Source: an uncultured Lachnospiraceae bacterium (lineage in GTDB: Bacteria > Bacillota > Clostridia > Lachnospirales > Lachnospiraceae). From it: a stretch of DNA of 49,348 nt. This document shows positions 8,088-27,994 of the stretch, piece by piece; positions within the stretch are counted from its first letter, which is position 1, and each line of letters begins with the position of its first letter. The translations under genes and the position numbers were made by a program. Where the stretch lies: assembly GCA_947630005.1 (NCBI GenBank), contig CANRGB010000006.1:1-49348 (forward strand), read 5' to 3'. The notes beneath the pieces were generated by a model, which ran no database searches, was not told the DNA's origin, and saw nothing but the letters and a program-made list of their open reading frames with translations.

Positions 8088-8114
8088 TCTGATATCGGGT
8101 TACGCGTTTTTCGG

Positions 8115-8146: not shown

Positions 8147-8147
8147 G

Positions 8148-8236: not shown

Positions 8237-8268
8237 TGAATTTTATAACAAATCCAGGAGGAATGAAA

Positions 8269-9537: not shown

Positions 9538-9549
9538 GAGGGCGCGCTT

Positions 9550-10041: not shown

Positions 10042-10085
10042 GTAACCAAAATATTTTCGCGATACAAATAAAATTGCAAACAAAC

Positions 10086-10115
10086 TTGACAAGTAAGTAA
10101 GTACAGGATTATAAT
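10086..10115 (+). promoter_or_regulatory. Strong SigA-type promoter for the opp operon
   Basis: TTGACA (10086-10091), an 18-nt spacer and a perfect TATAAT (10110-10115). The spacer contains three direct GTAA units (GTAAGTAAGTA), a possible operator. Confidence 0.8.
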
Positions 10116-10144
10116 CATTTGTAACAGAGAACATACGCATGTTT

Positions 10145-10185
10145 GGCGCAGAGGCCTGGATGAAGAGGTGATCTGCGCCATTTTT
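10145..10185 (+). terminator. Terminator-like hairpin in the opp leader (possible attenuator)
   Basis: GGCGCAGA (10145-10152) pairs with TCTGCGCC (10172-10179), followed by ATTTTTCG. It lies between the promoter at 10086-10115 and oppD, so transcription of the transporter must read through it. Attenuation is an inference; no known riboswitch was recognised. Confidence 0.5.
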
Positions 10186-10218
10186 CGTTATTGCCAGGCA
10201 AGGCAAAGTGAGGACTGT

Positions 10219-11229: not shown

Positions 11230-11369
11230 AAACCGCGCGCGGATGTGAGGGAACGCCGGAAGGAAAGGCGCCGGCCGAAACAGGCAGATCCCGCGGCGGA
11301 TCCGGCTTGTGAAAGCGCGGATGAATCAGGCATAAACATGAATGAATTAATGAATGAAGGGATTACCGT

Positions 11370-12368: not shown

Positions 12369-12379
12369 AGGAGGTCAGT

Positions 12380-13300
12380 ATGCAGCTTTCAAGATATATC
12401 ATCAAGCGGATACTGCTGGCCGTCGTCAGCATTTTCGCGATTGTCACGATCACGTTCTTTCTGATGAATCTGATGCCCGGCGATCCGTTCATGTCGGAAA
12501 AAGCGACGGAGGAATCCCGCCAGAAGCTGATCGAAAAATACGGACTTGACCAGCCGATCTACATACAGTATGAAAAATATCTGAAAAATCTTGCCAAAGG
12601 AGATATGGGCACGAGCTATGTGCTGCAGAAAGGCCGCGAGGTGCGGACGATCATCTTTGAATCGTTTTCCGTATCCATGAAGCTCGGTATCCGCGCGCTG
12701 ATTCTCGCGGTCATTGCCGGGATCACGCTGGGATGCATCGCCGGTCTGACAAAGGACAGGCTGCCTGACGGCCTGGTGCGGATTTTCTCGTCCATTGGCA
12801 TATCCATGCCGAGCTATGTTGTCGCGGCGATTCTGATGATCGTCCTGGCGGTCTCATGGAACATTCTGCCGCTCAACTACAACAAGCCGGGCGGATGGAT
12901 CATGCCGATGCTCACGCTCGCGACGTATCCGACCTGTTATCTGACAAGACTTACGCGGGCAAGCATTCTGGAAGTCATGAATCAGGATTATTTAAGAACC
13001 GAGAGGGCAAAGGGAATGTCCGAGTTCGTCGTGGTGTTTATCCATGCGCTCAAAAACTCTCTGATCCCGGTTATTACGTATCTTGGGCCGCTGACGGCTT
13101 CGATCCTGACCGGAGGGTTTGTCGCCGAGAGCGTATTCAGTGTTCCGGGACTTGGCAGATATTTCGTGAGCTCCATCAGCGGGCGGGATTATACGATGAT
13201 CATGGGGATCACGATTTTCTATTCGACCCTGATCGTGCTCATGAATCTGATCTGTGATATTCTGTACAAGATTGTTGATCCAAGAATTAGTTTTGAGTAA
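12380..13300 (+). CDS. oppB: Oligopeptide ABC transporter permease, OppB/DppB type
   Basis: The protein has 306 residues with about six membrane segments. The N-terminal motif is that of DppB-type permeases (YIIKRILLAV, MPGDPF), and the cytoplasmic EAA loop is in RASILEVMNQDYLRTERAKG, where the ATPases dock. AAAGGAGG lies before the ATG. Confidence 0.92.
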   Translation: MQLSRYIIKRILLAVVSIFAIVTITFFLMNLMPGDPFMSEKATEESRQKLIEKYGLDQPIYIQYEKYLKNLAKGDMGTSYVLQKGREVRTIIFESFSVSMKLGIRALILAVIAGITLGCIAGLTKDRLPDGLVRIFSSIGISMPSYVVAAILMIVLAVSWNILPLNYNKPGGWIMPMLTLATYPTCYLTRLTRASILEVMNQDYLRTERAKGMSEFVVVFIHALKNSLIPVITYLGPLTASILTGGFVAESVFSVPGLGRYFVSSISGRDYTMIMGITIFYSTLIVLMNLICDILYKIVDPRISFE

Positions 13301-13311
13301 GGATGATGGGT

Positions 13312-14313
13312 ATGAAAATAAATGCGTTATCGATGCAGAATAAAATTTCACCGGATGATTTTGCCCCTCTTGGGAGTGATTTTTTCGGGGAGGAATCGCT
13401 GAATACGGAGGAAGTCGGCTACTGGAAAGCGAGCTGGCAGCGGCTGAAGGCAAACAAGATTGCGATGGCCGCTCTGGTGATCATCCTGGTTCTGATGTTC
13501 TTCGCCTTTGTCGGACCGATGCTCTCGCCGTATACGTATGACCAGCAGGTCAGGGGAGACGAGGCGATGTGGCCCTGCCTGAAGCATCCGTTCGGCACGG
13601 ACCGTATCGGCCGCGACCTGCTTGTGCGCTGCATGATCGGCACGAGGATCTCCATGCTGGTCGGTATCGTGTCCGCGGTGATCGTCATGATCGTGGGGAG
13701 CATCTACGGATCGATTTCCGGACTGATCGGCGGCAAGGTTGATATCGCGATGATGCGTCTTGTCGATATTGTCTATTCCATCCCGGAAATCCTGCTGATC
13801 GTCGTGATCAAGATGATCATCAGCGAACCGCTGGATACGCTGATCAACACGGTGCCTGCGTTTTACGGGCTGCGCCGGATCGGATCCGGACTGATCGCGA
13901 TCTTCATCGTGTACGGCTGCCTGTACTGGGTCGGCATGGCGCGTATCGTGCGCGGACAGATCCTGCAGCTGAAAAATCTGGAATATGTGACGGCGGCGAA
14001 CGCGCTCGGCTGTTCCAGAGGCAGGATGATCCGCGAGCATCTTCTCCCGAACTGTATCGGGCAGCTGATCGCGACCGTTATGCTGCAGATTCCGTCGGCG
14101 ATCTTTACGGAGGCGTTCCTCAGCTACATCGGAATCGGAGTCGCCGCGCCGATGGCAAGCCTTGGCTCCCTGACCTCCGAGGCGCTCAACGGCATCAATT
14201 CCAATCCGTACCGCGTCATATTTCCGGCGATCCTGATCAGTCTGATCATTCTGTCGTTCAATCTGTTCGGGGATGGCCTGCGCGACGCGCTTGATCCGAA
14301 GATGAAAAAATAA
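13312..14313 (+). CDS. oppC: Oligopeptide ABC transporter permease, OppC/DppC type
   Basis: The protein has 333 residues. ATG 13312 is taken because AAGGA (13299-13303) is 8 nt upstream; two earlier ATGs at 13303 and 13306 are too close to that site. It has the N-terminal cytoplasmic OppC tail, a first membrane helix near residue 55, the conserved HPFGTDRIGRDLL segment and the EAA loop ARIVRGQILQLKNLEYVTAA. It pairs with OppB to form the channel. Confidence 0.92.
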   Translation: MKINALSMQNKISPDDFAPLGSDFFGEESLNTEEVGYWKASWQRLKANKIAMAALVIILVLMFFAFVGPMLSPYTYDQQVRGDEAMWPCLKHPFGTDRIGRDLLVRCMIGTRISMLVGIVSAVIVMIVGSIYGSISGLIGGKVDIAMMRLVDIVYSIPEILLIVVIKMIISEPLDTLINTVPAFYGLRRIGSGLIAIFIVYGCLYWVGMARIVRGQILQLKNLEYVTAANALGCSRGRMIREHLLPNCIGQLIATVMLQIPSAIFTEAFLSYIGIGVAAPMASLGSLTSEALNGINSNPYRVIFPAILISLIILSFNLFGDGLRDALDPKMKK

Positions 14314-14319
14314 GAGAGG

Positions 14320-14386
14320 GAGAATACTGTCTGATGCAGTATATCTCTTCGGCGCGCGGGAGGGACAATGCTTTAAACCGCGTGCC
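14320..14386 (+). other. Two intercistronic hairpins before oppA
   Basis: GAGAATACTG (14320-14329) pairs with CAGTATATCTC (14337-14347), and GGCGCGCGG (14351-14359) pairs with CCGCGTGCC (14378-14386). Neither has a T tract. Such hairpins often stabilise mRNA and help express the binding protein above the permease genes. Confidence 0.5.
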
Positions 14387-14420
14387 GGAGTGCATATAAA
14401 TTTTTTAAGGAGGATTTACT

Positions 14421-16001
14421 ATGAGAAAACGTAACAAACTGGCTGCCGCGGCTCTGGTGCTTGCCATGACCGTGTCTTCTCTTCCGGTTACGGGTGTTTT
14501 TGCGGAAGAGGGAGGAAAATTTGAGATCTCCGTCACCGGCGGCGGCGAGGACAGCATGGTGCTCGATACGTCCGAGTGCGGCGCGCTGAACGGTCTTTCC
14601 GCATGCCGTCATCTGTTTGAGGGTCTGTACAAGCTGGATGCCAGCGGTGAGGTAGTACTCGGCCAGGCTGCTTCCGTGGAGACGAGCGAGGACGGTCTTG
14701 ACTGGACTTTCACGCTGAGAGACGACATCACATGGTCCGACGGACAGCCTGTCACCGCGCAGGACTTCATTTTCGGATTCAATGCTCTGAAAGAGGCGGC
14801 GCAAAGCTATGAGGCGCTTCTGTCTGATCTGACCAACCCGGACAATCCGTACGAAGCTCCGGACGACAAGACAGTCGTGATCCACCTGGCTTCCCCGACG
14901 GCGTTCCTTCCGTCTGTGCTCGCGTTCCCGCCGACTTACCCGATCCGGGAGGACTTCTACGGCGACGGCGAGACCTACGCGACAGATCCGGACAAGGCAG
15001 TCTACAACGGACCGTATGAGCTGACCGACTGGCAGCATCAGTCCGTGATGACGATGGAACTGCGCGACGACTACTATGACGCCGCGAACATTCAGGTTGA
15101 GAAGATCAACTGGTATCTCGTCACGGAAGAGCGGTCCGCTCTTGCGAGCTTCGAGAACGGCGAATATGTTTATTCCGATCTGATCCCGGATGAGGAAGTT
15201 GAGCGTATGGACGGCCAGGGCCTTCACTATGTGCCCGGCAACAACAACTACTGCATCATGTTCAACCTGAACCAGGATCCGGAGAAAGGCGGCACGGGCG
15301 CAGAGGCTCTTCAGGATGTCAACGTCCGCAAAGCTCTTGCTCTTGCGGTCGACCGTCAGCGTATCATGGATATCCGTGCCATGAACGACGAGCCGGGCAT
15401 CACGTACGCGAGCAGCGGCTACACGAACGCGGAAGGCGTGGACTTCACAGAGTATGCCGATCCGTGGCTCGATATAGACAACTATGAGGGCAACTGCGAA
15501 GAGGCGAAGCAGCTTCTTGCCGACGCGGGATATCCGGACGGCCAGGGCTTCCCGGTTCTGAAATACATCGTCAACAATGCGAGCCGCAAGGAAGTCGCCG
15601 AGATGGTGGCGAGCGACTGGAAGAACGTGCTCGGGATCGACGCGACAGTTGAGACGTCCGAGAACTTCTTCACCGACAGGGACGAGGGAAATTATGACGT
15701 TGCCTACTTCGGCTGGTTCATGGATTATGAGGATCTCTCCAACATGTACAGCTCCATGCTCAACTCCGATGCGTTCTGGGAGAGCGAAGAGTTCACAGCT
15801 GCCTACAACGCGGCGATCTCTACCTCTGATCAGGCGGAGCAGTGGGAGCACTACAAAGAGTGTGAGGCAGTCCTCGCAAAGGATCTTCCGGTATCGGTGC
15901 TCCTTCATTCGATGAACAAATATCTGTTCCACGATGATATGTACGACGGGCTGGTTTACAACTGCAGTATGTTCGTATTCACCTATCTGACACAGAAGTA
16001 A
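14421..16001 (+). CDS. oppA: Oligopeptide-binding protein (SBP family 5) without lipobox
   Basis: The protein has 526 residues. AGGAGG precedes the ATG. A signal peptide (MRKRNKLAAAALVLAM) ends in GVFA before EEGG, and no cysteine occurs there, so it lacks the lipoprotein anchor normal for Gram-positive binding proteins. The family-5 hallmarks include GLYKLDASGEVVLGQAA, WSDGQPVTAQDFIFGFN and VRKALALAVDRQRI. It captures peptides for OppBCDF. Neighbouring epimerase and NlpC/P60 genes suggest wall peptides as ligands. How it stays at the cell surface is unclear. Confidence 0.9.
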   Translation: MRKRNKLAAAALVLAMTVSSLPVTGVFAEEGGKFEISVTGGGEDSMVLDTSECGALNGLSACRHLFEGLYKLDASGEVVLGQAASVETSEDGLDWTFTLRDDITWSDGQPVTAQDFIFGFNALKEAAQSYEALLSDLTNPDNPYEAPDDKTVVIHLASPTAFLPSVLAFPPTYPIREDFYGDGETYATDPDKAVYNGPYELTDWQHQSVMTMELRDDYYDAANIQVEKINWYLVTEERSALASFENGEYVYSDLIPDEEVERMDGQGLHYVPGNNNYCIMFNLNQDPEKGGTGAEALQDVNVRKALALAVDRQRIMDIRAMNDEPGITYASSGYTNAEGVDFTEYADPWLDIDNYEGNCEEAKQLLADAGYPDGQGFPVLKYIVNNASRKEVAEMVASDWKNVLGIDATVETSENFFTDRDEGNYDVAYFGWFMDYEDLSNMYSSMLNSDAFWESEEFTAAYNAAISTSDQAEQWEHYKECEAVLAKDLPVSVLLHSMNKYLFHDDMYDGLVYNCSMFVFTYLTQK

Positions 16002-16068
16002 AGGCTGAGATACACGTGGCAATTTAACAGAAGCTGCTGCCGCTGACAAAGTGAACAGCAGCTCTGTG

Positions 16069-16145
16069 CCGCGGCAGTCAGGAATACCTTCGGGCGGACA
16101 CCTGAAAGGTTTTTCCGAAAGGATCCTGATCTGCCGCGGTTTTTC
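16069..16145 (+). terminator. Terminator after oppA
   Basis: CCGCGGCAG (16069-16077) pairs with CTGCCGCGG (16131-16139), extended by CAGGA/TCCTG, and is followed by TTTTTCTTTT. An internal ACCTT/AAAGGT pairing occupies the loop. Confidence 0.75.
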
Positions 16146-16160
16146 TTTTGCATGGATACG

Positions 16161-16195
16161 AAAAGGCAGCAGCGGTCTGTATTTGCTGCCTTTTT
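16161..16195 (+). terminator. Second terminator-like hairpin directly before the epimerase gene
   Basis: AAAAGGCAGCA (16161-16171) pairs with TGCTGCCTTTT (16184-16194), and the 3' arm itself forms the T run. It lies 20 nt before the epimerase start, so it either ends the opp transcript or controls read-through. Confidence 0.65.
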
Positions 16196-16214
16196 ACAGC
16201 ATATGGAGGAAATT

Positions 16215-17324
16215 ATGAAGATAAAGAGCATTTCGCTGGGCTATATCGACATACCGCTTGTGACTCCGTTTAAAACGGCTCTTCGGACGGTGAACAGCGT
16301 GAACGACCTGATTGTGAAAATCGAGACGGAGGACGGGATGTCCGGCTACGGCGAGGCGCCGCCGACGGCTGTGATCACAGGCGATACGAAGGAGTCGATC
16401 GAGGCGGCAGTCCGCGGCTATATCGCCCCGTCGATTCTTGGAATGGATCTCGATGAGATTGACGCGGTTATGGAAAAGATGGAAAAGAGCATCGCGAAAA
16501 ACACTTCCGCGAAAGCCGCGGTCGATATCGCGCTCTATGATCTGTACGCCAGGGAAAAAGGAATGCCGCTGTTCCGGATGCTCGCAAAAGGGGATTTGGG
16601 GCAGGCAAAGACGCGGCTTGAGACGGATCTGACGATCAGCGTCAACGATACGGAAGAGATGGTGCGCGACAGTCTCCGCGCGGTCGGACAGGGATTCCGG
16701 ATCCTCAAGGTAAAGGTCGGAAAAGGCGGCGCCAGGGACGTTGAGCGGATCCGTGAAATCCGAAGAGCTGTCGGCAGCGAGATTGTGATCCGCGTGGACG
16801 CCAATCAGGGCTGGACGAGGGAGGAAGCCGTGCGCACGATCCGGGCGATGGAAGACGCCGGTCTTGGGATCGAGCTTGTGGAGCAGCCGGTATCCGGCCA
16901 TGATTTCAAAGGACTGAAGTATGTGACAGGCCAGGTAAATACGCCGATCCTCGCGGACGAGGCGGTATTTTCTGTCGAAGATGCGGAGCGGATTATCGAG
17001 GAGCGCGCGGCGGATCTTCTCAACATCAAGCTTATGAAGACAGGCGGAATTCACAACGCTTTGAAAATCTGCGATCTCGCGCAGAAAAACGAGGTAAAAT
17101 GCATGATTGGCTGTATGCTTGAGAGCAAGGTGGCGGTCAGCGCGGGGGCTCACCTCGCGGCGGCGCGCAGCTGTGTCACGATGGCGGATCTGGACGGCCC
17201 GTCGCTTTGCAGCGCTGATCCGTATCAGGGAGGTCCTATATACCGCGGTCCGGATATTCTGCTGACCGAGGAGAGCGGAATCGGGATCACGATGGTTCCG
17301 GTTTCATTTGAAACATTGTCCTGA
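16215..17324 (+). CDS. Dipeptide epimerase (L-Ala-D/L-Glu epimerase, enolase superfamily)
   Basis: The protein has 369 residues from ATG 16215, with GGAGG at 16205-16209. It has the enolase-superfamily barrel with the muconate-lactonizing-type catalytic set: KxK (Lys165, Lys167), metal ligands Asp195 (VDANQGW), Glu223 (VEQPV) and Asp248 (LADEAVF), and Lys272 (NIKLMKTGG). Specificity marks of Ala-Glu epimerase are TPFKTALR (Arg24) and ADLDG (Asp325, Asp327), which bind the dipeptide ends. It interconverts L-Ala-D-Glu and L-Ala-L-Glu so that murein peptides can be digested. This is the role of YkfB, encoded beside a dipeptide transporter in Bacillus subtilis. No promoter was recognised, so read-through from opp is possible. 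Confidence 0.88.
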   Translation: MKIKSISLGYIDIPLVTPFKTALRTVNSVNDLIVKIETEDGMSGYGEAPPTAVITGDTKESIEAAVRGYIAPSILGMDLDEIDAVMEKMEKSIAKNTSAKAAVDIALYDLYAREKGMPLFRMLAKGDLGQAKTRLETDLTISVNDTEEMVRDSLRAVGQGFRILKVKVGKGGARDVERIREIRRAVGSEIVIRVDANQGWTREEAVRTIRAMEDAGLGIELVEQPVSGHDFKGLKYVTGQVNTPILADEAVFSVEDAERIIEERAADLLNIKLMKTGGIHNALKICDLAQKNEVKCMIGCMLESKVAVSAGAHLAAARSCVTMADLDGPSLCSADPYQGGPIYRGPDILLTEESGIGITMVPVSFETLS

Positions 17325-17372
17325 TTCCGGCAGGATCCTGCCGGGACGGGAAGATTTTGGAGGGTGAGAGAG

Positions 17373-19181
17373 ATGGCGGAGCAGTTTGCGATTGTAACTT
17401 CCGGACACTGTTATCTGCGCAGGATGCCCGGCGGGAGCGCGGATCAGAACAGCAGCGAGATTGTGGACGAGATTTTTTCCGGGTGGGCGGTCCGCCTGTT
17501 TTTGGAGACGGCGGAAAACGGATGGGTGAAAGCGGAGACGCACTACGGCTACAGCGGTTATATCCAGGAAAGCTGTGTGAGTGCGGTCAGCCGCGCGGAA
17601 CTCCTCAAAAGGCAGGACAAGAAGAGATTCCGGGCTGTCGGCATCGGGGAAGCGGATCTTCTCGCGGAACCTAAGGTGCAGGGGCTTCCTCTGGAACTGC
17701 TGGAAAAGAACGCGTTCGTCGAGCTGTCAGACGGCGGGGAAGCGGATTTCGGATATCTGAAGCGGGAGGATCCGGACGGCGGGAAGGACGGGCAGAAAGC
17801 GGTTCGGGAGAATGACAGCATGAAAGAGGAAGAAGGCTGGAGCAGGATCCGGACGGCGGCCGGAAACGAAGGCTATGTGCACACCGTTTATTTAAGAGAG
17901 CGTATGGACGACGACGGTTATCTGCTTGCGGATGCGGCAGACCGGAAATCTTATTTCAAAAAATTCGGAGAAATCCCGCCGGAGCGGGAGGAAGCGTTTC
18001 GGGAAGGAGTCGCGCGAAGCGCCGCGGCGTATCTTGGCACGCAGTACCGCTGGGGCGGAAAGTCCTCGCAGGGCCTGGACTGTTCCGGGCTCGCGTTTAT
18101 CTGCTATATGGAAAACGGAGCGCTGATCTACCGCGACGCCGGAATGCCCGGCGGCTACGCGGTGCGGGAGATTTCCGCGGACAGTCTGAAAAAAGGCGAC
18201 CTGATCTTTTTTCCCGGACATGTGGCGGTGTATCTCGGAGCGGGCCGCTATATTCACGCGACGGCGTTTTCGGCGACGCCCTGTGTCACGGTCAACAGTC
18301 TGAATCCGGACGACGCTGATTACAGGGAGGATCTTGCGGGTAAAATAACCGGATATGGAAGTATTTTTCAAAACAGAGCCACCTGCAGTCCGGCGTGTGA
18401 GCGCGGCGCGTATTTTGACCGCCTGGAAGCGAGGCTGGAAAAGCTTCCCGGAACGGTCAGCTTTGTATACAGAAATCTTGTCAGCAAAGAACAGTATGCC
18501 TGCCGCGGGGATGTGCCTCAGACGGCCGCGAGCATCATCAAACTGTTTTTGATGGCGGCTGTGTTTCAGGCGGTCTCGGACGGGCTGATCCGCATGGAGG
18601 ACAAAATACCGGTAAAGGAAGAGGACTGCGTGCCTTCCTGCGGCGTGCTCACCTATCTTCATGGGAAAAGAGAGGTTTCTGTCGCGGATCTGGTTGAGCT
18701 GATGATCATTGTGAGCGACAATACGGCCGCGAATCTGCTGTTTGACCTCGTCGGGAGCGGCTATCTGTCCTCGTTTATCCGCGTCGGACTGGGGATGGAA
18801 AAAACAGCCTTTCGAAGAAAAATGTTTGATGCCCGCAGTGCGGCGAAGGGGATCGAGAATCAGGTGACGGCAAAAGACGCGGCGGATCTGCTGGAGAAAA
18901 TTTACAGAGGAGAGCTGGTCAGCAAAGAGGCCTCCGCCGAAATGTACCGGATCCTGACGCATCAGAGGCTGAACGGAAAGATACCGTTCCGTCTGCACTG
19001 CCTGAAGGAGGCTCCCGTCATCGCCCACAAGACCGGGGAAGATACGGGGATCACGCACGACGTGGCGGTCATAGAAGGAAGGGAGCCGTTTATTCTCTGC
19101 TTTCTGGGAAGCGGGACGGATGTCCCGGAGTTTGAGCGCCTGATGGCGGATGTGTCATATGAGATATACCGCATGATCTGA
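17373..19181 (+). CDS. SH3 / NlpC-P60 endopeptidase fused to a serine beta-lactamase-like domain
   Basis: The protein has 602 residues. ATG 17373 is 8 nt after GGAGGG; an in-frame GTG at 17364 overlaps that site. No signal peptide is visible. Two bacterial SH3-like segments (about 5-75 and 85-175) precede an NlpC/P60 domain with Cys237 (DCSG), His283 (GHVAVYLG) and His295. This layout is that of YkfC-type gamma-D-Glu-diamino acid endopeptidases of murein recycling. Residues 345-602 form an added domain with beta-lactamase motifs: Ser387-x-x-Lys390, Ser448-Asp-Asn450 and Lys553-Thr-Gly555. The usual omega-loop ExxLN glutamate is not evident, so it may act as a peptidase/esterase or slow acylase and not as a lactamase. 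Such a fusion in the cytosol is odd. Its N-terminal half would act on peptides imported by Opp after or before epimerisation. Confidence 0.85.
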   Translation: MAEQFAIVTSGHCYLRRMPGGSADQNSSEIVDEIFSGWAVRLFLETAENGWVKAETHYGYSGYIQESCVSAVSRAELLKRQDKKRFRAVGIGEADLLAEPKVQGLPLELLEKNAFVELSDGGEADFGYLKREDPDGGKDGQKAVRENDSMKEEEGWSRIRTAAGNEGYVHTVYLRERMDDDGYLLADAADRKSYFKKFGEIPPEREEAFREGVARSAAAYLGTQYRWGGKSSQGLDCSGLAFICYMENGALIYRDAGMPGGYAVREISADSLKKGDLIFFPGHVAVYLGAGRYIHATAFSATPCVTVNSLNPDDADYREDLAGKITGYGSIFQNRATCSPACERGAYFDRLEARLEKLPGTVSFVYRNLVSKEQYACRGDVPQTAASIIKLFLMAAVFQAVSDGLIRMEDKIPVKEEDCVPSCGVLTYLHGKREVSVADLVELMIIVSDNTAANLLFDLVGSGYLSSFIRVGLGMEKTAFRRKMFDARSAAKGIENQVTAKDAADLLEKIYRGELVSKEASAEMYRILTHQRLNGKIPFRLHCLKEAPVIAHKTGEDTGITHDVAVIEGREPFILCFLGSGTDVPEFERLMADVSYEIYRMI

Positions 19182-19283
19182 AAGACGGCGGTACTCATAT
19201 CCGGAACCGCGTAATACAATAAAGAACGAAAGAATGTCTGGTTGACGCTGACCTGTCAGGTGGCCGGAAAGGACCAGGGAATT

Positions 19284-20765
19284 GTGGAAAAAAGAGAACA
19301 GGGAAAAATCCGGCGCGCGCTGGAAGCCGCTTTTCTGGGTATTCTTCTCGCGGGGATGACCGCGGCAGCATTTGCGCTGCTTCACCGCTACGCGGAGTAT
19401 GGAAGAGAGGCGTCTGTAAACACGGCGGAACAGGAACCAGAGGCGACGGAGCGGGAGACCGCTTCCGGTGAAAGCACAGAGAAAGAGGAGCCGTTTTGCC
19501 TGGAAAAACTGGAATCCGGCCTGCAAATCCGCGTGCAGATCCTCGGAGATGATTATCTGACGGAATATCATGAAGCGCTGGCTGTGACGGCGGAGGATGA
19601 TCTGATCGTTGGCTGCAGAGGAAAAAGGCAGGTCATTCCTGCGGGAAAGGTTCTTCGGATCTCGCCGGCCAGGGAGGCGGACAGCGCGTCTGAGACGGAC
19701 GAAAGTGTGCCGGAAGAAAACGAAAAACAGACGGACTGGTATGAGGACGGAAGCATCGCGCTCGCAAAAGGACAGATGCTTTCGGTCAGAACCGCGGATG
19801 GAAAAGGGCCGCTGGTGCTTTCCGGGCTGAAGCGGGGACAGAAAAATCCCGCCTATGAAGGGAAATTTTATATTTACGGAACAGAAGAGGGACTCCTGGC
19901 GGTGAACGAGGTCGATCTGGAAACGTATCTGCAGAGCGTTGTGAGCAGCGAGATGCCAAGTTCCTATCCCATGCAGGCCCTCTGCGCGCAGGCCGTCTGC
20001 GCGAGAACGTACGCCGTCAACTGCATGGACAGAGCGCGGAAAGAAAAAAAACCGGCGGATCTGGATGACAGCACCTCCTTTCAGGTATATAATAACTACC
20101 CGGGGGATGCGCTGTCCGCGCAGGCGGCCGCTTTGACAGAAGGGCTGGTCATGAACCGCGGCGACGTTTATTACTATTCGACATCCTGCCTGACAGAGGG
20201 CAGGACGGATCTTGACAACGAAGAAAATTTCCGGAAGTTTCTGGACGCTCCTGCGGAAGAGAACGCGGAGTACGGTTCGCCGTGGACGCGCTGGTCGGCC
20301 GAGCTTCCGAAAGAGCAGATCCTGGATAAATTAGAGGAGCTCTATGGCTGCGCGTGGAGAAAGCTGCGGCGCGTGGAAATTCTGGAACGGAACGAAGAAG
20401 GGCAGGTGCAGAAGATCCTGCTTTCTGACGGCAGGGAAGAAGTCCTTGTTGAGGGGGAATATCAGATCCGCCGCGTGCTGGGCTGCGCGCAGGCCAGAAT
20501 TCTGCTGCGGGACGGCTCGGAAGCGGAAGATATGCGGATTCTGCCAAGCGCTTACTTTTATATCCGCGAAGAGGAACCGGAAACTTTTGGAGCGCGGCAG
20601 GCTTTTGAAGAGCGGCAGACTGACGGCGTTCTTCAGGAAACAGACCGCATTGTTGTCTGCGGCGGCGGCTACGGGCACGGGATCGGCATGAGTCAGAACG
20701 GCGCGGCCGCCATGGCTCAGAACGGGGCCGGCTATGAGGAGATTCTGAGATATTATTACGCGTAA
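19284..20765 (+). CDS. SpoIID/LytB-domain protein (membrane-anchored murein lytic transglycosylase-like)
   Basis: The protein has about 493 residues. The start is uncertain: GTG 19284 with AGGGA/AAAGGA upstream is preferred, while a TTG at 19242 is weaker. One N-terminal membrane helix (residues about 15-35) is followed by an acidic linker. The SpoIID domain shows the catalytic-type Glu in VVSSEMPSSYPMQALCAQAVCARTY (a long conserved block near residue 230), then DSTSFQVY and the C-terminal GYGHGIGMSQNGA. SpoIID-family enzymes cut glycan strands lacking stem peptides. This copy is not in a sporulation cluster and sits with wall-peptide salvage genes, so it may act in vegetative wall turnover. 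Confidence 0.85.
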   Translation: MEKREQGKIRRALEAAFLGILLAGMTAAAFALLHRYAEYGREASVNTAEQEPEATERETASGESTEKEEPFCLEKLESGLQIRVQILGDDYLTEYHEALAVTAEDDLIVGCRGKRQVIPAGKVLRISPAREADSASETDESVPEENEKQTDWYEDGSIALAKGQMLSVRTADGKGPLVLSGLKRGQKNPAYEGKFYIYGTEEGLLAVNEVDLETYLQSVVSSEMPSSYPMQALCAQAVCARTYAVNCMDRARKEKKPADLDDSTSFQVYNNYPGDALSAQAAALTEGLVMNRGDVYYYSTSCLTEGRTDLDNEENFRKFLDAPAEENAEYGSPWTRWSAELPKEQILDKLEELYGCAWRKLRRVEILERNEEGQVQKILLSDGREEVLVEGEYQIRRVLGCAQARILLRDGSEAEDMRILPSAYFYIREEEPETFGARQAFEERQTDGVLQETDRIVVCGGGYGHGIGMSQNGAAAMAQNGAGYEEILRYYYA

Positions 20766-21947: not shown

Positions 21948-23123
21948 ATGATATCTGATATTTATTTTATGCCGCTTGGCGGCGGACAGAGAGTAGGTGC
22001 CAGCTGTTATTTTCTGCGCATCGGAAACGCAAATATAATACTGGACGCCGGAATCGGGAAGAAAAACGGGCTGGAGTTTGAGCCGGATTTTTATTCGCTG
22101 GTCAGCACGCCTTTCGTTCAGTCGATGAATCAGATCGGTCAGATCTATATTTCCCATGCGCATATGGATCATGTCGGCTGTCTGACAAAACTGATGGGAT
22201 GCGCGGGCCGTTCCGCTGTTTATATGACGGAAATAACAAAGATGCTGACAGAGTATCAGCTGTATGACCGGATCTACTGCAGCCGAAGCGCCGGGGATCC
22301 GGGATCTGGCAGGGACTCCGGAGAGGATTCAAGGCTGGCGGTCAAAAGCCTGCTGGAAAATATCGCGGCAGTCAGCTATATGCAGACGATCGATTTCGGG
22401 ATATACAAAGCATCGTTTTTCCCGGCGGGCCATATTCCCGGGGCCATGATGATACTGTTTGATACAGGGAAGCGGAAAATTCTGTATACCGGAGATTATT
22501 CGCTTGATCCGACGCTGCTGACCGAAGGCTGCAAAGTGCCGGCGGATACAAAAATCGACACAGTGATCCTGTGCGGACTGCATGCGAAACATCCGGACTA
22601 TGTTAAAAAGTCCAGTTCTTTGTTTAAAAAGGTAAATTTTGTTCTGGAAAATGCGGAAAGCACCGGTCAGCCGACCGCCTGCGTTGTTTTGCAGCTCAGC
22701 AAAGGGATCGAATTTCTGAAGGCTTTAAATGAGCAGAACCGCAGAGGAATCCCGATTTACATAGACAGGCCGCTCATGGGAATCATCCGGAAAATGGAAC
22801 AGCTGTCGATTCCGATTATGAATCAGCATAATAAGATGATCGGGGAGAGCCCGCCTGCGGGACCGCATATTTTTGTCACTTCCGATTCCGGGAACCGGTT
22901 TCTGGGAGGATACCGGAAGATACCGGTGGATTTCACGCTGCATGAGGATTTTTCGGATATGAAAAGATTTATCAAGGCAGTGAATCCCCGGCAGGCGGTC
23001 ATAGTGCACTGTGCGAAAGAATATTCTGTATTTGACAGGACGATCGAGCAGGAGGTGATGTCGGACGGCGACTGCAGAACACAGTTTATCTTCGCGGAAG
23101 AAAGAGAACTTTACAAATTATAA
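21948..23123 (+). CDS. Metallo-beta-lactamase-fold hydrolase, beta-CASP-like
   Basis: The protein has 391 residues. ATG 21948 follows GGAGG by 8 nt; upstream extension to 21837 lacks a site. Metal-binding motifs of the fold are all visible: His70-x-His72-x-Asp74-His75 (SHAHMDH), His162 (AGHIPGA), Asp183 (YTGDYS) and a late His in VIVHCAKEYS. The segment between them resembles the beta-CASP insertion of RNA/DNA nucleases (CPSF73, RNase J). The protein is short of the RNase J C-terminal domain. It is the first gene of a tight operon, 23 nt before the GrpE-like gene. The substrate is unknown; nucleic acid is the family expectation. Confidence 0.8.
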   Translation: MISDIYFMPLGGGQRVGASCYFLRIGNANIILDAGIGKKNGLEFEPDFYSLVSTPFVQSMNQIGQIYISHAHMDHVGCLTKLMGCAGRSAVYMTEITKMLTEYQLYDRIYCSRSAGDPGSGRDSGEDSRLAVKSLLENIAAVSYMQTIDFGIYKASFFPAGHIPGAMMILFDTGKRKILYTGDYSLDPTLLTEGCKVPADTKIDTVILCGLHAKHPDYVKKSSSLFKKVNFVLENAESTGQPTACVVLQLSKGIEFLKALNEQNRRGIPIYIDRPLMGIIRKMEQLSIPIMNQHNKMIGESPPAGPHIFVTSDSGNRFLGGYRKIPVDFTLHEDFSDMKRFIKAVNPRQAVIVHCAKEYSVFDRTIEQEVMSDGDCRTQFIFAEERELYKL

Positions 23124-23146
23124 AAAATAAAAGCGGGGGAATCAGA

Positions 23147-24238
23147 ATGATAAACGTCAGAAATGAAAAAGTGAGAGAAATCATCCGGAACATTCACGAG
23201 TCGGTGCTCCGGAACGTGAAGCGCGGAGGGCAGATGAGAGAAGAGTATGTGATAGAGAACAGGGTTTTCGCTTCCCTGTGTCATGATTCTGACCTCACGC
23301 CCGCGAAATGCGCCGCGGAACTGAACCGGAAATACGGGTATGATCTGAGCGCGGACGACGTACTCCAGATATTCCGCAGCAGAAGGATGGCCAATCCGGC
23401 AGAGAGAAAGGAATTATTCCAATGGGCCAGGAGAGTGGTGGACTGTTTTTCGGGCGCTGTGACAGGCAGAAAAGAAGCCTATGAAAAGTTCGAGAAAACA
23501 AGAAAAGAGCCGGCGCTGAAGAATGGAAAACGGCATAAATCCCAGGAACGAATCGCGGCAATCATGATCTATGAAAGGTTCCCGGAGATCGACCTGTCCG
23601 ACGATACCGAAAAACTGCATCTGCTTGGAAATACTCTGGCAAAATATTTCTTTTTTGATCTGGCGGATTCCATCGGCGAGGCGTACGGTTTTCCGCAGTA
23701 CAAAGACAAAAAGGCGCAGGCCGCGGAGAACAGGCCCGAGAAAAAGCTTTCGTATGAGCAGGCCGTAAGAAGAATCGAACAGCTGGAGAGAAACCTGGAG
23801 AGAACCAACACACTGCTTCAGGATCTGCAGGATGAATTCGAGGAACAGCTGGAAGCGAATAAGATAAAGGAGCTGACCGACTTCTTTACAAAGCTTAATT
23901 CGGAAAAGTACGGCTGTATTCTTGACGAGCTGCTGGTATTGAAAAAGGGGATCGATACGCTCCGCAAAAACAGCTATGAGCTTCCGATCGAGATCAACGG
24001 GCTTCTGGTGATGGTCAGAAAACTGATTCAGTTTGTCCGCGACAGCCACATTGACCCGATCATGAAAACCGACTCGGTAAAAGAGGTGACCGCATCCGAT
24101 GTTGAGTTCTGCAATTACGAGGGGACGCCGTTTGCTTCGGAGAATGAAAAAAAGATAGTAAGGATAATCTCTCCCGGCTGGATTTACAAAGACAAGGAAC
24201 TGCAGATATCAAGACCGAAAGTAAAGGAGGAATTCTAA
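23147..24238 (+). CDS. Coiled-coil protein with a GrpE-like C-terminal half, probable Hsp70 cofactor
   Basis: The protein has 363 residues. I recognise no named family over the whole length. Residues 1-185 are mostly helical and charged (one stretch is KYGYDLSADDVLQIFRSRR). Residues 200-245 form a coiled coil (EQLERNLERTNTLLQDLQDE), followed by two helices to 300. Residues 300-358 look like the GrpE beta-domain: SHIDPI, then EKKIVRIISPGW, then KELQISRPKV, in the order and spacing seen in GrpE (DP...; V..v...GY/W; lR.a.V). It overlaps the Hsp70 start by one base (TAATG), so translation is coupled. The inferred role is nucleotide exchange for the following Hsp70. Confidence 0.65.
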   Translation: MINVRNEKVREIIRNIHESVLRNVKRGGQMREEYVIENRVFASLCHDSDLTPAKCAAELNRKYGYDLSADDVLQIFRSRRMANPAERKELFQWARRVVDCFSGAVTGRKEAYEKFEKTRKEPALKNGKRHKSQERIAAIMIYERFPEIDLSDDTEKLHLLGNTLAKYFFFDLADSIGEAYGFPQYKDKKAQAAENRPEKKLSYEQAVRRIEQLERNLERTNTLLQDLQDEFEEQLEANKIKELTDFFTKLNSEKYGCILDELLVLKKGIDTLRKNSYELPIEINGLLVMVRKLIQFVRDSHIDPIMKTDSVKEVTASDVEFCNYEGTPFASENEKKIVRIISPGWIYKDKELQISRPKVKEEF

Positions 24239-27096
24239 TGCGTGAAATACGAAACGGGGAACATAATGATCTTTGTGTGGGGATCGATCTTGGCACTACA
24301 AACTCTGTCCTGGCGACGATAAACGAAAGACCGAACGGGAATATTGTCAGCAGGGTTGTCGAGATCCCCAGAGGTGTGGATATCTATAATGCCGTCTCAG
24401 GCGAGGCAAAGCTGACGACGATGAAGAAGCCCACGCTGCCGTCCTGCATATATTACCGGCAGGAGAAGAATTACGAGCCTCTGGTCGGAGATTTCGCGAA
24501 AATCCAGTATCCGCTGAGACCGCATCTTGTGGCGAAGTCCGTTAAAAGCCAGATGGGAAAACCGCTTGCGGAAGGACTGTCCCCGGATATCCCGGATAAG
24601 ACGCCGGCGCAGATCTCGTCCAGGACGCTGAAGCACATGCTCAGGGAGGCTTCCAGGATATACCGCTGCGAGATCACCGACGCGGTTATCACAGTTCCCG
24701 CGAATTTTGATTCGGCAATGTGCAAGGCGACGCGCGACGCGGCCGAGCTTGCCGGCATCAAGGTCCGGAATTCAGACGGAAGCGAACGCCCCGTTCTGCT
24801 GTCTGAGCCTAACGCGGTGATTTATGATCTGATCAATCAGATCCACAACGGCGAGATATCGGACTGCATACTGGATCTGAGTACGCCCAAAAGGGTTCTG
24901 GTATTTGATCTGGGCGGCGGGACTCTTGATATCACCATGCATGAGCTGAAGAGAAGAGAGGATAACCCGGAGGTTCTGAAGGTGAATGAAATCGCGGCCA
25001 ACCGCTATACGCTTCTTGGCGGAGACAATTTTGATGAAAAAATTGCGGAAGCCATGTATGAACGCTATTTAAAGCAGTACGAAAAGCACCCTGACGTAGT
25101 GCTTGAACTGCGCAAGAAAAAGTCGGTTATCATGCCGCAGCTTATGGTATACGCAGAACATTTAAAGCTGGATTTAAATGAACGCTGCGGCGAAGATTAC
25201 AGTTCCGGATGGGATGACGATGAAGATGAAATCGAGATCCCGGTTGGCGGAAACATGGGAGGGATCGGCTACTCTTACGATGATATTTTTTCAAAAGAAG
25301 AAATCGAAGAAATATTATCGGGATTCATGGCGAAAGAAATCGTTTATGATGACTATAAAAATATGGAGTCGGTCAGTGATACCAGAAATATCATATACCC
25401 AATTCTGGATGTGCTGCAGAAGGCGTCCGCAAAACTGAAAACGGAGGATGTGACTGTTGACGCCGTTATCGTAAACGGCGGGATGTCAAAATTTTATATG
25501 GTGACGGACCGTCTGAAAGAATTTTTCGGTTTTGAGCCCATCGTGGCGCTCGATCCCGACCAGTCCGTTGCGAGGGGAGCCGCGGTATATCATTATTACC
25601 TGCACAAATATGAGGAGATGCAGGATGATATGAGAATGCTCGGCGATGCCGGGATGACGCCGAACGAGGATGTCCTGTGGACGGACGGCTGGAGAAGAGC
25701 AGCCGCGGCCCGCATAAGGACGGCGGATACGATTCCCATGGCGATCCAGTGGGGAAATACGATCCTCAATGACAGCCTGTATCTCGGCGTCAAAAACGGC
25801 GCCGTGCACAAGATCATACCGACGGGAGCCGAGCTTCCGTACACGTCGGCCGTCATGACCGGATTCCGGATTGAGCCGGGACAGAACCGGATCGCGATTC
25901 CGATCAAGAGCAGGAATCTTGACGGGACTTACAGGGTGATCGCAAGCGGCAACATAACGTTCAGGGAAAAATATGCGAACGGCGCCTACGTTGCGTTTAT
26001 CGTTCACATGGGAAGCAGCAAGGTCATAACCATGAAGGCCTGGACAAGCAGAGATGAGGCCGGAGGCGTGAAAATGGAAGAGGGCTGCGTTGAGATCGCG
26101 ATCGATAATTCCGAGAGATCGAAGATCAAAACAAAGTTCATCGCGCCGGGGGGAAGCAGGCTGAATCCCAAGGCGGAAGTGAACAATATGCTGCAGCTCA
26201 TTTATAATTATGAGAAGTCGAAAAACAAGTTGGAGAAAAGTAATATTTCGAAGCGCATCATGTCCTGCGTGAACAGTATCTGCGGCGCGGGAAATAAAGA
26301 AGAATTTGCAAAAGTGATCCTGGACGCGCTGTCCGTTGTGGGATCGGAGGAGGCGAGACAGAGGCTGTTTGTCGCGGCAAGAAGGATGGCTTCGGACTGG
26401 AGCGATGCCGAGAAGAGAAGCCTGGCAAGGCACTGTATAGATCAGATCAGGGCGGACCTTCAGGGACTGCCGGCGCGCGGCGCAAAAGTGACCACCAATA
26501 TCCAGGCGGTCTACACGATGAGCGTGTGCGCGGATATGGATCAGCTTGACCGTCTGGAAAAGCTGCACGGTGTGACGAAGTACCTTCAGGCATGCCTGTA
26601 TACCCACGCGAAGACAAGAACCCATATACCGTGGATCCGCGAGGAATTCGAGAAGGATGTCCGCAATACAGAACGAGGCCTCGGCAGCAATCTGCAGTTC
26701 AGCGTCCATGCGGTCGGAGTGGCGCTGCGGAAAAACGAAGGGATCAGCATGCTTCCGCCTGAATCCGAGGCGAAAATCGTAAAGGAGATCTGCGGCGTGG
26801 TCCGCAAAGGAAGACTGAGCAGTGCGGAGCTGGTCTGCTGCATTCTGGCGCTGGGCTGTATCTGCGACCAGAGAAGCCAGCCAAGTGAGATGGACGGCAG
26901 CGTTCTTTCCCTGGCGCTGGAAACCGCAGAAAAGATCGATCAGTATTACCCCTTCCAGAATGCGGAGAGCTGGAGGAGATCGGTCAGCGTGGCGGTAAAG
27001 ATGATAAACGGGGATCGGCTGACGGGCGACGAGGAACGCTTCCTGCTGACAAAACTGGACGCCGACAGCATTGACAATCGCGAAATTTGTGCTTGA
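24238..27096 (+). CDS. Divergent Hsp70-family chaperone with C-terminal helical extension
   Basis: The protein has 952 residues against about 610-640 for DnaK. The ATPase domain is complete: phosphate-1 loop GIDLGTTNS (15-23), phosphate-2 VFDLGGGTLDIT (222-233) and adenosine motif VNGGMSKFYMV (412-422). It carries an acidic insertion (WDDDEDEIEIP, 325-335). Residues about 500-640 resemble the beta-sandwich substrate domain (IPMAIQWG, then FRIEPGQNRIAIPI). Residues about 645-952 form an unrecognised alpha-helical, possibly repeat-like region in place of the usual lid. AAAGGAGG precedes the ATG, which overlaps the previous stop. The neighbours suggest a dedicated chaperone with its own GrpE-like factor and a metallo-hydrolase. 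No J-domain gene is nearby. Confidence 0.85.
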   Translation: MREIRNGEHNDLCVGIDLGTTNSVLATINERPNGNIVSRVVEIPRGVDIYNAVSGEAKLTTMKKPTLPSCIYYRQEKNYEPLVGDFAKIQYPLRPHLVAKSVKSQMGKPLAEGLSPDIPDKTPAQISSRTLKHMLREASRIYRCEITDAVITVPANFDSAMCKATRDAAELAGIKVRNSDGSERPVLLSEPNAVIYDLINQIHNGEISDCILDLSTPKRVLVFDLGGGTLDITMHELKRREDNPEVLKVNEIAANRYTLLGGDNFDEKIAEAMYERYLKQYEKHPDVVLELRKKKSVIMPQLMVYAEHLKLDLNERCGEDYSSGWDDDEDEIEIPVGGNMGGIGYSYDDIFSKEEIEEILSGFMAKEIVYDDYKNMESVSDTRNIIYPILDVLQKASAKLKTEDVTVDAVIVNGGMSKFYMVTDRLKEFFGFEPIVALDPDQSVARGAAVYHYYLHKYEEMQDDMRMLGDAGMTPNEDVLWTDGWRRAAAARIRTADTIPMAIQWGNTILNDSLYLGVKNGAVHKIIPTGAELPYTSAVMTGFRIEPGQNRIAIPIKSRNLDGTYRVIASGNITFREKYANGAYVAFIVHMGSSKVITMKAWTSRDEAGGVKMEEGCVEIAIDNSERSKIKTKFIAPGGSRLNPKAEVNNMLQLIYNYEKSKNKLEKSNISKRIMSCVNSICGAGNKEEFAKVILDALSVVGSEEARQRLFVAARRMASDWSDAEKRSLARHCIDQIRADLQGLPARGAKVTTNIQAVYTMSVCADMDQLDRLEKLHGVTKYLQACLYTHAKTRTHIPWIREEFEKDVRNTERGLGSNLQFSVHAVGVALRKNEGISMLPPESEAKIVKEICGVVRKGRLSSAELVCCILALGCICDQRSQPSEMDGSVLSLALETAEKIDQYYPFQNAESWRRSVSVAVKMINGDRLTGDEERFLLTKLDADSIDNREICA

Positions 27097-27120
27097 CAGA
27101 AGATTATCCTGTGTTAGAAT
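27093..27120 (+). promoter_or_regulatory. SigA-type promoter overlapping the Hsp70 stop codon
   Basis: TTGACA (27093-27098; the Hsp70 TGA is inside it), a 16-nt spacer and TAGAAT (27115-27120). It fires toward the terminator at 27160 and the phosphatase-queA-nrdG genes. Confidence 0.65.
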
Positions 27121-27159
27121 AAATATCAGCGCCGGAGAAGCCGGCAGACCGGTAAGAAA

Positions 27160-27194
27160 GCTTCGTCCCTGTTTTTCAGGGACGAAGCATTTTT
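27160..27194 (+). terminator. Intrinsic terminator, 12-bp perfect stem
   Basis: GCTTCGTCCCTG (27160-27171) pairs with CAGGGACGAAGC (27177-27188) around TTTTT, then ATTTTT. It ends the Hsp70 operon and would also stop a short transcript from the promoter at 27093. Confidence 0.85.
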
Positions 27195-27197
27195 GGA

Positions 27198-27287
27198 TTA
27201 TGCACAGGCCCGTGTAAGGAAGTCAGCTGCTAACGCAGCACACGGGCCGCGCAGGCGGGCAGGAGGAAAAACCGCCTCCTGCTCGAT
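27198..27287 (+). repeat. Terminator-associated two-hairpin repeat, copy 2
   Basis: Hairpin 1 is GGCCCGTGT (27207-27215) with ACACGGGCC (27240-27248). Hairpin 2 is GCAGGAGG (27259-27266) with CCTCCTGC (27275-27282). It starts just after the Hsp70 terminator. Confidence 0.8.
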
Positions 27288-27362
27288 CACAGGCCCGCAT
27301 AAGGAAATCAGCTGCCGGCACAGCAGGCGGGCAGGAGGAAAAGCCGCCTCCTGCTCGATCGC
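27288..27362 (+). repeat. Two-hairpin repeat, copy 3 (tandem, truncated hairpin 1)
   Basis: It repeats copy 2 head to tail (GGCCCGCATAAGGAAATCAG...) but lacks about 13 nt corresponding to the closing arm of hairpin 1. Hairpin 2 is intact. It ends 20 nt before the phosphatase gene. Confidence 0.75.
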
Positions 27363-27382
27363 GAAGACAGAGAGGAAAGATT

Positions 27383-27994
27383 ATGAGACTTTACATAATA
27401 AGACACGGCGAGACTGTGTGGAATACGAAGAGACGTCTTCAGGGACAGACGGATACGCAGCTGAACGAAAACGGCAGAGAGCTCGCGCGGATAACCGCGC
27501 AGGCCCTTAAAGATGTCCCGTTTGATCTGGCATTTACAAGTCCGCTGCGAAGAGCCGCCGAGACGGCGGAGATCATTCTGAACGGGAGAGAGGTGCCGCT
27601 TAAGATGGAAGAGCGCATCCGTGAGATCAGTTTCGGCGTGCTGGAGGGGCGCTGTATTCTTCCGGAGTTCCACGAGATCGACGATCCCGGTTTTCATTAT
27701 TTTTTTGACGCGCCGGAAAAGTACTGTCCGCCTGCCGGAGGGGAGAGTCTCGACAGTCTGAGCGCGCGGACGGGAAATTTTCTGGATGAGCTGAGGGAAA
27801 AAGAAGCTTTCCAGGATAAGACCATACTGATTTCGACGCACGGAGCCGCCTCCCGCGCGCTGCTTGGCTGCATTACCGGCTGTCCGCGGAGCGAATTCTG
27901 GGGGACGGGCGTGCCGAAAAACTGCTCTGTATCGATCATTGATCTTGTGGACGGCAGATGGGTGGTCACTGCCAGGGATATTACATATTATTGA
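27383..27994 (+). CDS. Histidine phosphatase family protein (phosphoglycerate-mutase-like)
   Basis: The protein has 203 residues. The phosphohistidine motif [12 protein letters not shown] is at the N-terminus, and the second His is in [13 protein letters not shown] near residue 155. Arg in [14 protein letters not shown] completes the phosphate pocket. Such proteins dephosphorylate small molecules (for example cobalamin or sugar phosphates); the substrate is not deducible. GAGAGGAAAG precedes the ATG, and queA follows after 11 nt. Confidence 0.9.

Follow-up and report, generated by a model that had tools for sequence, protein, structure and literature searches.

A recurrent trio of a beta-CASP-like hydrolase, a GrpE-like protein and a solenoid-bearing Hsp70 as a candidate defence or conflict module

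Sequence comparison across genomes shows that a metallo-beta-lactamase-fold (MBL) protein of beta-CASP type, a coiled-coil protein resembling GrpE, and an Hsp70 with a fused or accompanying HEAT-type protein are, as judged from their linkage, inherited together as a trio. It is described here from the window, a stretch of 49,348 nucleotides from an uncultured Lachnospiraceae bacterium. We regard the trio as a dedicated, horizontally moving chaperone-hydrolase module, whose proteins would form one complex with the Hsp70 gating the MBL and for which defence or conflict would be the likeliest role, ahead of housekeeping. To this reading as a whole we give slightly less than an even chance. No paper describing the trio was found among openly licensed PMC texts, as judged by title and start of the abstract.

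The three genes are co-oriented and tightly coupled. A gap of 23 nt separates the MBL gene from the middle gene, which then overlaps the Hsp70 gene by one base (TAATG), and by eye a purine-rich, ribosome-binding-like stretch lies 5' of every start. The features are as follows.

21948..23123, + strand: beta-CASP-like MBL-fold hydrolase, 391 aa (PF00753, PF16661; alignment, n=14)
22155..22172, + strand: MBL motif 2, HAHMDH, residues 70-75 (alignment, n=14)
22431-22433 and 22494-22496, + strand: MBL ligands H162 and D183 (alignment, n=14)
22572..22577, + strand: site of beta-CASP motif A, here CG, residues 209-210 (alignment of MBL domains)
22941..22943, + strand: H332, aligned to the motif B His (invariant 14/14; SAHA/SAHS in distant relatives)
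23007-23009, + strand: H354, motif C His (invariant 14/14; VHG/MHG in distant relatives)
23147..24238, + strand: middle protein, 363 aa, with N-terminal helical domain, long coiled coil and GrpE-like C-terminal half (model, mean pLDDT 76)
23744..24229, + strand: GrpE-like region, residues 200-361, with its beta domain (residues 302-361) at 24050-24229
24238..27096, + strand: Hsp70 with C-terminal solenoid, 952 aa (PF00012, E 9.6e-36, 123.6 bits against a cut-off of 20.6; alignment, n=14)
24238..25612, + strand: Hsp70 nucleotide-binding domain, about residues 1-458 (motifs; alignment)
25777..26100, + strand: substrate-binding beta-sandwich, about residues 514-621 (structure model)
26167..27057, + strand: HEAT/ARM-like alpha-solenoid, about residues 644-940 (predicted structure), at the place of the helical lid

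The MBL frame is given from the ATG at 21948; an alternative, longer frame with a GTG start runs from 21837. The sequence-only reading had described three close-packed genes, and coordinates, gap and overlap all hold. It had also called the arrangement a non-standard chaperone operon without DnaJ. Pfam finds no J domain in the three proteins. The Pfam GrpE match of the window's genome, with pieces of dnaK adjoining it, lies on C61; an ordinary dnaK operon is rejected.

The set of MBL, GrpE-like protein and Hsp70 was recovered at 25 distinct loci (G006/L012 and G231/L015 each counting as one locus, since the contigs are equal in length). These comprise clostridial clade 1 with 18 loci, a divergent clostridial clade 2 with four and three distant cases, namely a Priestia plasmid, a Klebsiella plasmid and G631, which belongs to another clostridial family and has a different gene order. 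A pattern scan that detects close relatives only gave 14 loci, all with the middle gene and 13 with the MBL, the exception being L020, where the contig begins 219 bases before the middle frame. Among 397 sampled genomes of the window's family the trio was complete in all nine matching genomes; the middle gene and the Hsp70 tail each single out these nine, and reverse searches return them again. At one locus (L068 of G227) MBL and middle protein are fused in a single frame of 794 aa. Beyond the trio, no gene is common to more than three of 15 loci. Because of the 25 loci and the searches in both directions we reject a chance neighbourhood, and the gene-neighbourhood check proposed from the sequence alone comes out with the three families co-occurring.

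Six further genomes with MBL matches at E<=1e-15 are not members. Two (G110, G320) carry a separate beta-CASP protein of 850-924 aa and one (G083) has pieces of such a protein, with no Hsp70 seen by eye in the stretches fetched from these three; in the others (G159, G117, G060) the matches lie in frames of 539-551 aa, which is RNase J size, the name being given by size only. Spurious matches were also set aside: that of G558, which by eye resembles the small subunit of exonuclease VII, a fragment in G082, a frame interrupted by stops in G587, and a PDB match to dTale2 with not one passing stretch.

The MBL matches PF00753 (E 3.7e-9) and PF16661 (E 4.3e-7). Its closest solved structures are Ysh1/IntS11/CPSF73, the Cas14 chain 8yhd_H was matched at E 4.3e-10 in the same type of search, and the nearest NCBIfam profiles are TIGR03675 (E 6.2e-25) and NF045584 (E 2.3e-20), both far under their own cut-offs. 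The metal-ligand set of motifs 1-4, already read as full from the sequence alone, is complete, with D33, H70, H72, D74, H75, H162 and D183 invariant in 14/14 sequences. The beta-CASP-like middle that had been proposed stands in its motif B and C histidines, but the acidic residue of motif A is gone, PF10996 (beta-CASP) finds no match in the window MBL, and this part is reduced. C209 and G210, which occupy the motif A site, are themselves invariant (14/14). Across the trio, CG replaces the acidic residue in clade 1 and N does so in the clade 2 rows listed, whereas the Priestia, Klebsiella and G631 proteins keep it, reading ESTYG or EHTYG, and retain all of beta-CASP motifs A-C. Loss of motif A makes a nuclease step doubtful in the window clade. 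Since the clostridial clades lack motif A together with a large part of the beta-CASP domain, their MBL may be a remodelled hydrolase, or else a pseudo-enzyme subunit for sensing or scaffolding.

In the Hsp70 the ATPase motifs GIDLGTTN (at 15), SEPNAV (189), DLGGGT (224) and NGGM (413), covering phosphate-1, phosphate-2 and adenosine, are in place, and they recur at all 16 clade 1 loci examined (of 18) and all four of clade 2; an acidic insert occupies about residues 316-375. The top Foldseek matches of the sandwich are DnaK, Hsp70 and HscA substrate-binding domains (best E 6.5e-6, a DnaK domain; 62 at E<=0.001). The model has no short helical lid after the sandwich, and a solenoid of about 300 residues is predicted there, whose structure matches include chain D of an IntS4-IntS9-IntS11 entry. 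Both claims made earlier for this protein, an intact ATPase domain and some 300 additional residues, are thus upheld, the latter now as a predicted HEAT/ARM alpha-solenoid. At the two plasmid loci (Priestia, Klebsiella) a HEAT-type protein accompanies the Hsp70 as a separate product. Compared by hhalign, the fused solenoid reaches a probability of 1.9 with these separate HEAT proteins, and values of 0.4 and 0.1 were obtained with a 552-aa protein of G631, which gives no evidence that fused and separate forms descend from one ancestor. In a tree of 16 of the 18 clade 1 loci, the other groups and eight canonical DnaKs, the node that unites the three Hsp70 groups is supported at 89/79, and branches are long.

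The trio is carried by nine of 397 genomes in the window's family and, the window counted, by two of 36 in its genus. In G006 it sits between YihY and pheS, which adjoin directly in four of nine relatives examined, and the Klebsiella plasmid copy has an integrase nearby. A repeat array of CRISPR type lies 203 bases from the MBL in G631, Cas6 lies 208 bases upstream at L017, a type II methylase and restriction enzyme follow immediately downstream at L071, and kinase-AAA/STAND proteins lie upstream at L019 and L021, the AAA_16 match of L019 being under the curated cut-off. Defence-type neighbours were counted, without a control set, at four of 18 loci scanned, and many remaining flanks are metabolic. 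That scan covered 87 flanking frames of >=100 aa, at most three per side and free of N, with the window, L011, L012, L024 and the three distant loci excluded; ten of the 87 frames were inspected individually, and helicase-type cross-matches (L023, L070) were kept out of the count. A PADLOC tally of the flanks, in the 25 of 174 families listed and with the member frame unnamed, contains PDC-S02 (best 7.3e-122) and mad2 twice. The three proteins themselves had no meaningful match in PADLOC-DB 2.0.0, the only ones being at E 0.023 and 0.039. With the middle protein as query, neither phage records nor IMG/VR contigs were returned, nor any plasmid for the type found in the window, and the plasmid-type proteins had no match in IMG/VR; neither E. 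coli genomes that carry the Klebsiella MBL gene nor Rfam near the operon gave anything useful. Taken together, the patchy occurrence, the plasmids, the variable chromosomal site and the proximity of some CRISPR, restriction and STAND-kinase genes suggest that the trio serves in defence or conflict, as far as genomic context can indicate.

The middle protein had been read as a coiled coil followed by a GrpE-like beta domain. Profile comparison (on 22 of 30 fetched loci, retained by a motif and length filter) and structural re-alignment both place the GrpE beta-domain pattern at the same spot, but Pfam and plain Foldseek do not find it. No Pfam family lies above cut-off for this protein, GrpE (PF01025) is absent from its five families at E<=1 and also for 15 members among the best 25 of 28 families listed, and Foldseek with the whole protein gave globins and helical bundles, none at E<=0.001 and no GrpE among the matches listed. 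One could hence argue for a coiled-coil adaptor whose likeness to GrpE arose by chance, which would be compatible with a defence role. The coiled coil is modelled at a pLDDT of 45-66, clade 1 by itself does not reach the GrpE profile (11/100 block shuffles equal its score), and neither do the three distant middle proteins (hhalign probability 1.5). Yet none of 100 block-shuffled GrpE profiles matched the score of clade 2, nor that of both clades together (0/100), and with the agreement of the two methods we consider such an adaptor improbable. At their C-termini the distant proteins match the main clades with an hhalign probability of 94.6 (E 6.8e-8). We conclude that the GrpE-like part is supported but remote.

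The trio could alternatively serve stress response or RNA quality control outside defence, with the Hsp70 detecting nascent chains that misfold or stall and the MBL clearing damaged or stalled RNA. The intact Hsp70 motifs and sandwich, best MBL matches that are RNA nucleases (CPSF73/IntS11/aCPSF1) and several trio copies amid ordinary metabolic genes agree with such a function. A patchy distribution (9/397) with the distant type on plasmids is, however, unlike housekeeping, and motif A is gone in the main clades, so that we hold this function to be rather unlikely. Client-specific folding or assembly in the style of HscA and its iron-sulphur scaffold, where the Hsp70 pair would have maturation or assembly of the MBL, or of a larger solenoid-scaffolded complex, as its sole task, would account for the strict pairing with a single enzyme and the MBL::middle fusion. 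HscA models rank near the top of the NCBIfam matches to the Hsp70 (far under cut-offs), and the solenoid could be a scaffold. But nothing evident would make the MBL, a small hydrolase fold, depend on a private Hsp70, and the three proteins lack a Pfam J domain; this option seems quite improbable to us.

In the favoured chaperone-hydrolase module, MBL, GrpE-like protein and Hsp70 would assemble into one complex. Sandwich and solenoid of the Hsp70 would bind a client. This could be the MBL, or else a protein that arises or becomes misfolded in phage infection or other damage. The nucleotide state of the Hsp70 would set the timing of MBL action on a nucleic acid, RNA or other. By way of ADP release, the Hsp70 would be reset by the GrpE-like protein, which would be tied to the MBL as in the one fusion locus. 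The sequence-only reading had likewise seen a dedicated chaperone-controlled effector, and it is supported in part: the coinheritance and recurrence of the trio speak for a dedicated set, and a nuclease as effector is doubtful in the window clade. More specifically, and only tentatively, the trio might be a new immune or conflict class in which Hsp70 and its private GrpE-like factor gate a beta-CASP RNase, the chaperone cycle acting as infection sensor and timer and the nuclease being remodelled in the clostridial forms into another hydrolase or a pseudo-enzyme.

Hsp70 and GrpE commonly count as all-purpose folding machinery. If a mobile unit ties them to one nuclease-like enzyme, it would present the chaperone cycle as a switch, and would add a GrpE-like branch invisible to Pfam. 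With three proteins, one natural fusion and relatives with intact nuclease motifs, the system would be small and tractable, and lets one ask if Hsp70 can directly sense infection or damage.

Among known systems, CPSF73/Symplekin and IntS11/IntS9/IntS4 likewise have a beta-CASP MBL that works with a HEAT scaffold; these cleavage modules are not known to contain Hsp70 or GrpE. We read this likeness as a parallel in parts, by which descent is not shown. Cas14 (type VII CRISPR) and archaeal aCPSF1 are the beta-CASP MBL nucleases closest to the window MBL by profile, but their models span 612-631 positions, against 391 aa and no motif A in the window. CnuD of type III CoCoNuT, as portrayed in passages of PMC11090510, shares Hsp70-like NBD/SBD and HEAT-like helical repeats with the trio and is predicted to act on RNA. 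It differs by its McrB-type GTPase partners and degenerate ATPase motifs, where the trio has an Hsp70 with intact motifs partnered by MBL and GrpE-like protein; in the main text of that paper GrpE is absent, and an MBL fold appears a single time, in a figure legend on superoperons. Conflict systems centred on a GAP1-N2 GTPase contain HSP70 and GrpE, according to passages of Kaur et al. (2020; PMC7159879), and thus also place an Hsp70 and its exchange factor within a predicted conflict system. There, however, the GTPase is central and fusion to DnaJ or TPR typical, while the trio has a beta-CASP-like MBL in that position, and the string "lactamase" is absent from the main text of PMC7159879. 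With DnaK-GrpE-DnaJ, finally, the trio shares the Hsp70 ATPase domain, the substrate sandwich and a partner with coiled coil and GrpE-like beta domain, but it escapes the Pfam GrpE model in its middle protein, has no J protein, bears a solenoid at the place of the lid and includes a metal hydrolase as a fixed member.

The sequence-only reading had described three tightly spaced genes, and this arrangement was confirmed, with a 23-nt gap between the MBL and middle-protein genes and a one-base overlap between the latter and the Hsp70 gene:

21948-27096, + strand: metallo-beta-lactamase-fold hydrolase (MBL, 391 aa), GrpE-like middle protein (363 aa) and Hsp70 (952 aa)

As contig C6, the window belongs to a 3.2-Mb genome (G000; 222 contigs, 82.8% complete), whose Pfam GrpE match lies on contig C61 with dnaK pieces adjoining. 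In three compared genomes (G041:C131, G043:C46 and G039:C15) Pfam GrpE matches fall within open frames of 573-653 aa; the usual GrpE is shorter.

The neighborhood search proposed in that reading found the three families together at 25 loci, of which 22 are whole, two are cut by contig ends and one, from Klebsiella, has its Hsp70 in two pieces. After removal of two redundancies, 18 loci belong to clade 1, the window's type, and four to clade 2, a divergent clostridial type. A pattern-based scan with the Hsp70 as query yielded 14 loci from GTDB contigs (L011-L024), all with the middle gene and 13 with the MBL; the L020 contig begins too close for an MBL to be visible, and L024 is truncated within the Hsp70. 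Using a middle-protein profile, we identified nine positive genomes among 397 of the window's family (five clade 1, including the window's own, and four clade 2), and all nine have MBL, middle protein and Hsp70 in identical order. Clade 2 middle proteins are divergent and alignable to the profile over their C-terminal half only. The Hsp70 tail recovered the identical nine from these 397 genomes, plus one 39-residue fragment, and the MBL (E<=1e-15) recovered the nine and six further genomes, which carry other MBL types as judged by context or size. The trio shares a common inheritance, and in one genome (G227) MBL and middle protein are fused in a single 794-aa frame. Among 398 phylum-wide genomes, a single weak and apparently spurious match was obtained in addition to that of the window.

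Two distant relatives, on Priestia megaterium pNCT2_2 and Klebsiella grimontii pNY3A, were reached by tblastn of the Hsp70 against plasmids. Both carry a row of MBL, hypothetical protein, Hsp70 and HEAT-repeat protein, the pNY3A Hsp70 being annotated as two overlapping pieces. Their middle proteins matched these two plasmids only among 72,556 plasmid records, and a profile of both revealed an additional case, genome G631, among 274 genomes of the phylum. There the order is GrpE-like protein (417 aa), Hsp70 (585 aa), a protein of 552 aa that has no Pfam match, and beta-CASP MBL. In their C-termini, the distant three middle proteins aligned with the clostridial ones (hhalign probability 94.6, E 6.8e-8). 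In a tree of 36 ATPase domains, eight from DnaKs, clades 1 and 2 were joined with good support (100/99) and the distant three grouped (99/97); all trio Hsp70s were separate from the DnaKs (89/79), at a node that is unsure because of several long branches.

The full metal-binding set read from the MBL sequence is present, its ligands being invariant in 14/14 proteins. Top solved-structure matches were Ysh1, IntS11 and CPSF73, and the nearest NCBIfam models, aCPSF1 and Cas14, scored far below their cut-offs. The proposed beta-CASP-like middle held only in part. Alignment revealed that clade 1 and 2 MBLs keep the motif B and C histidines but have lost the motif A acidic residue and much of the beta-CASP part, whereas the distant three retain the SSGML region and all of motifs A, B and C, motif A reading ESTYG or EHTYG. 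On these motifs, the distant type probably has nuclease activity, which is doubtful for the MBL of the window. A distinct long beta-CASP type (850-924 aa, motifs A-C present) occurs at L085:1257-4031 and L086:7453-10005, with no Hsp70 noticed within the fetched stretches.

The intact Hsp70 ATPase domain read from the sequence is borne out by its motifs, which are present in every clade 1 (16/16) and clade 2 (4/4) row inspected. Phosphate-1 was found in 3/3 distant Hsp70s; the phosphate-2 search pattern missed the Priestia protein because the sequence there is DIGGGT, and the adenosine motif reads VGGMS in Priestia and TGGMS in G631. In a predicted model of residues 465-952, a beta-sandwich, matched by Foldseek to substrate-binding domains of DnaK, Hsp70 and HscA, is followed by fifteen helices forming a solenoid. 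VIA-align matches of the solenoid were mainly armadillo/HEAT-type proteins, including one chain of the IntS4-IntS9-IntS11 module; comparison with the separate plasmid HEAT proteins did not show a common origin. A second non-canonical Hsp70 cluster of the window's genome (L072, G000:C2:5000-24900, at 7634-19901) holds two Hsp70s in tandem (550 and 761 aa), a protein of 1046 aa with a J-like start and a zinc-ribbon-like protein (both by eye), and a 902-aa frame.

Within the window's genus the trio is present in 2/36 genomes, including the window's. The G006 copy sits between YihY and pheS. Among nine fetched relatives without the trio, these two genes are directly adjacent in four (gaps of 239-888 bases) and separated by other genes in three (in G016 one transposase-like by eye); in the other two, frame picking hid one of the pair. 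Flanks vary, no gene beyond the trio being common to more than three of 15 loci. Transposase-like frames (by eye) adjoin the G243 copy (L070:12964-16031). In the window, a promoter-like TTGACA-16-TAGAAT overlaps the Hsp70 stop (within 27093-27360), followed by a 12-pair hairpin (27160-27188) and imperfect direct repeats of 45 and 38 nt. In relatives pheS-pheT precedes a phosphoglycerate-mutase-like gene, and window 27096-27383 lacks pheS-pheT there; the sole pheT found in the incomplete genome (G000:C49:16044-18476) shares 39% identity with the L012 pheT. Clostridiales-1 RNA (RF01699) occurs near the window's far end (48032-48206, - strand) and immediately upstream of pheS at L012:11333-11506.

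Defence-type neighbors were found at 4/18 clostridial loci scanned and 2/3 distant ones, as raw counts without a control set; many of the remaining flanks are metabolic. The defence-type neighbors comprise a Cas6 gene (L017, 208 bases upstream), a type II methylase and restriction enzyme (L071, immediately downstream), upstream protein kinases with AAA or NB-ARC and TPR parts (L019, L021), a CRISPR-type array (about 39 repeats) lying 203 bases from the MBL in G631, and an integrase and HNH endonuclease on the Klebsiella plasmid. A PIN-Hsp70 fusion directly upstream of the L013 MBL was left out of this count; it is one of three additional Hsp70-like genes surrounding that copy (L013:446-15891). 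Near the G631 copy, a signalling-type cluster on a single strand (L120:12250-19590) encodes PP2C, FHA, radical SAM and AAA proteins, a 514-aa protein and a protein kinase.

Judging from the MBL/middle fusion and from a gene order that is constant in both main clades, the GrpE-like protein may be the bridge. The three proteins would form one complex, in which the middle protein would perform nucleotide exchange and the Hsp70 cycle would gate the MBL, and the system would serve defence or some other conflict; to this reading as a whole we give a little less than half of our confidence. The main rivals are that the trio serves stress or RNA quality control, or that it has a private folding role.

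A literature search, judged on titles and abstract openings, did not find a description of the trio, and the combination of MBL, GrpE-like factor and Hsp70 is not described in the excerpts of the two related papers considered here. Excerpts of PMC3710099 had no bearing on it. The excerpts of Kaur et al. (2020; PMC7159879) cover GTPase-centred conflict systems, some of which contain HSP70 and GrpE. Those of the CoCoNuT paper (PMC11090510) mention an MBL fold once, in a superoperon figure legend, and describe CnuD, an Hsp70 with HEAT-like repeats.
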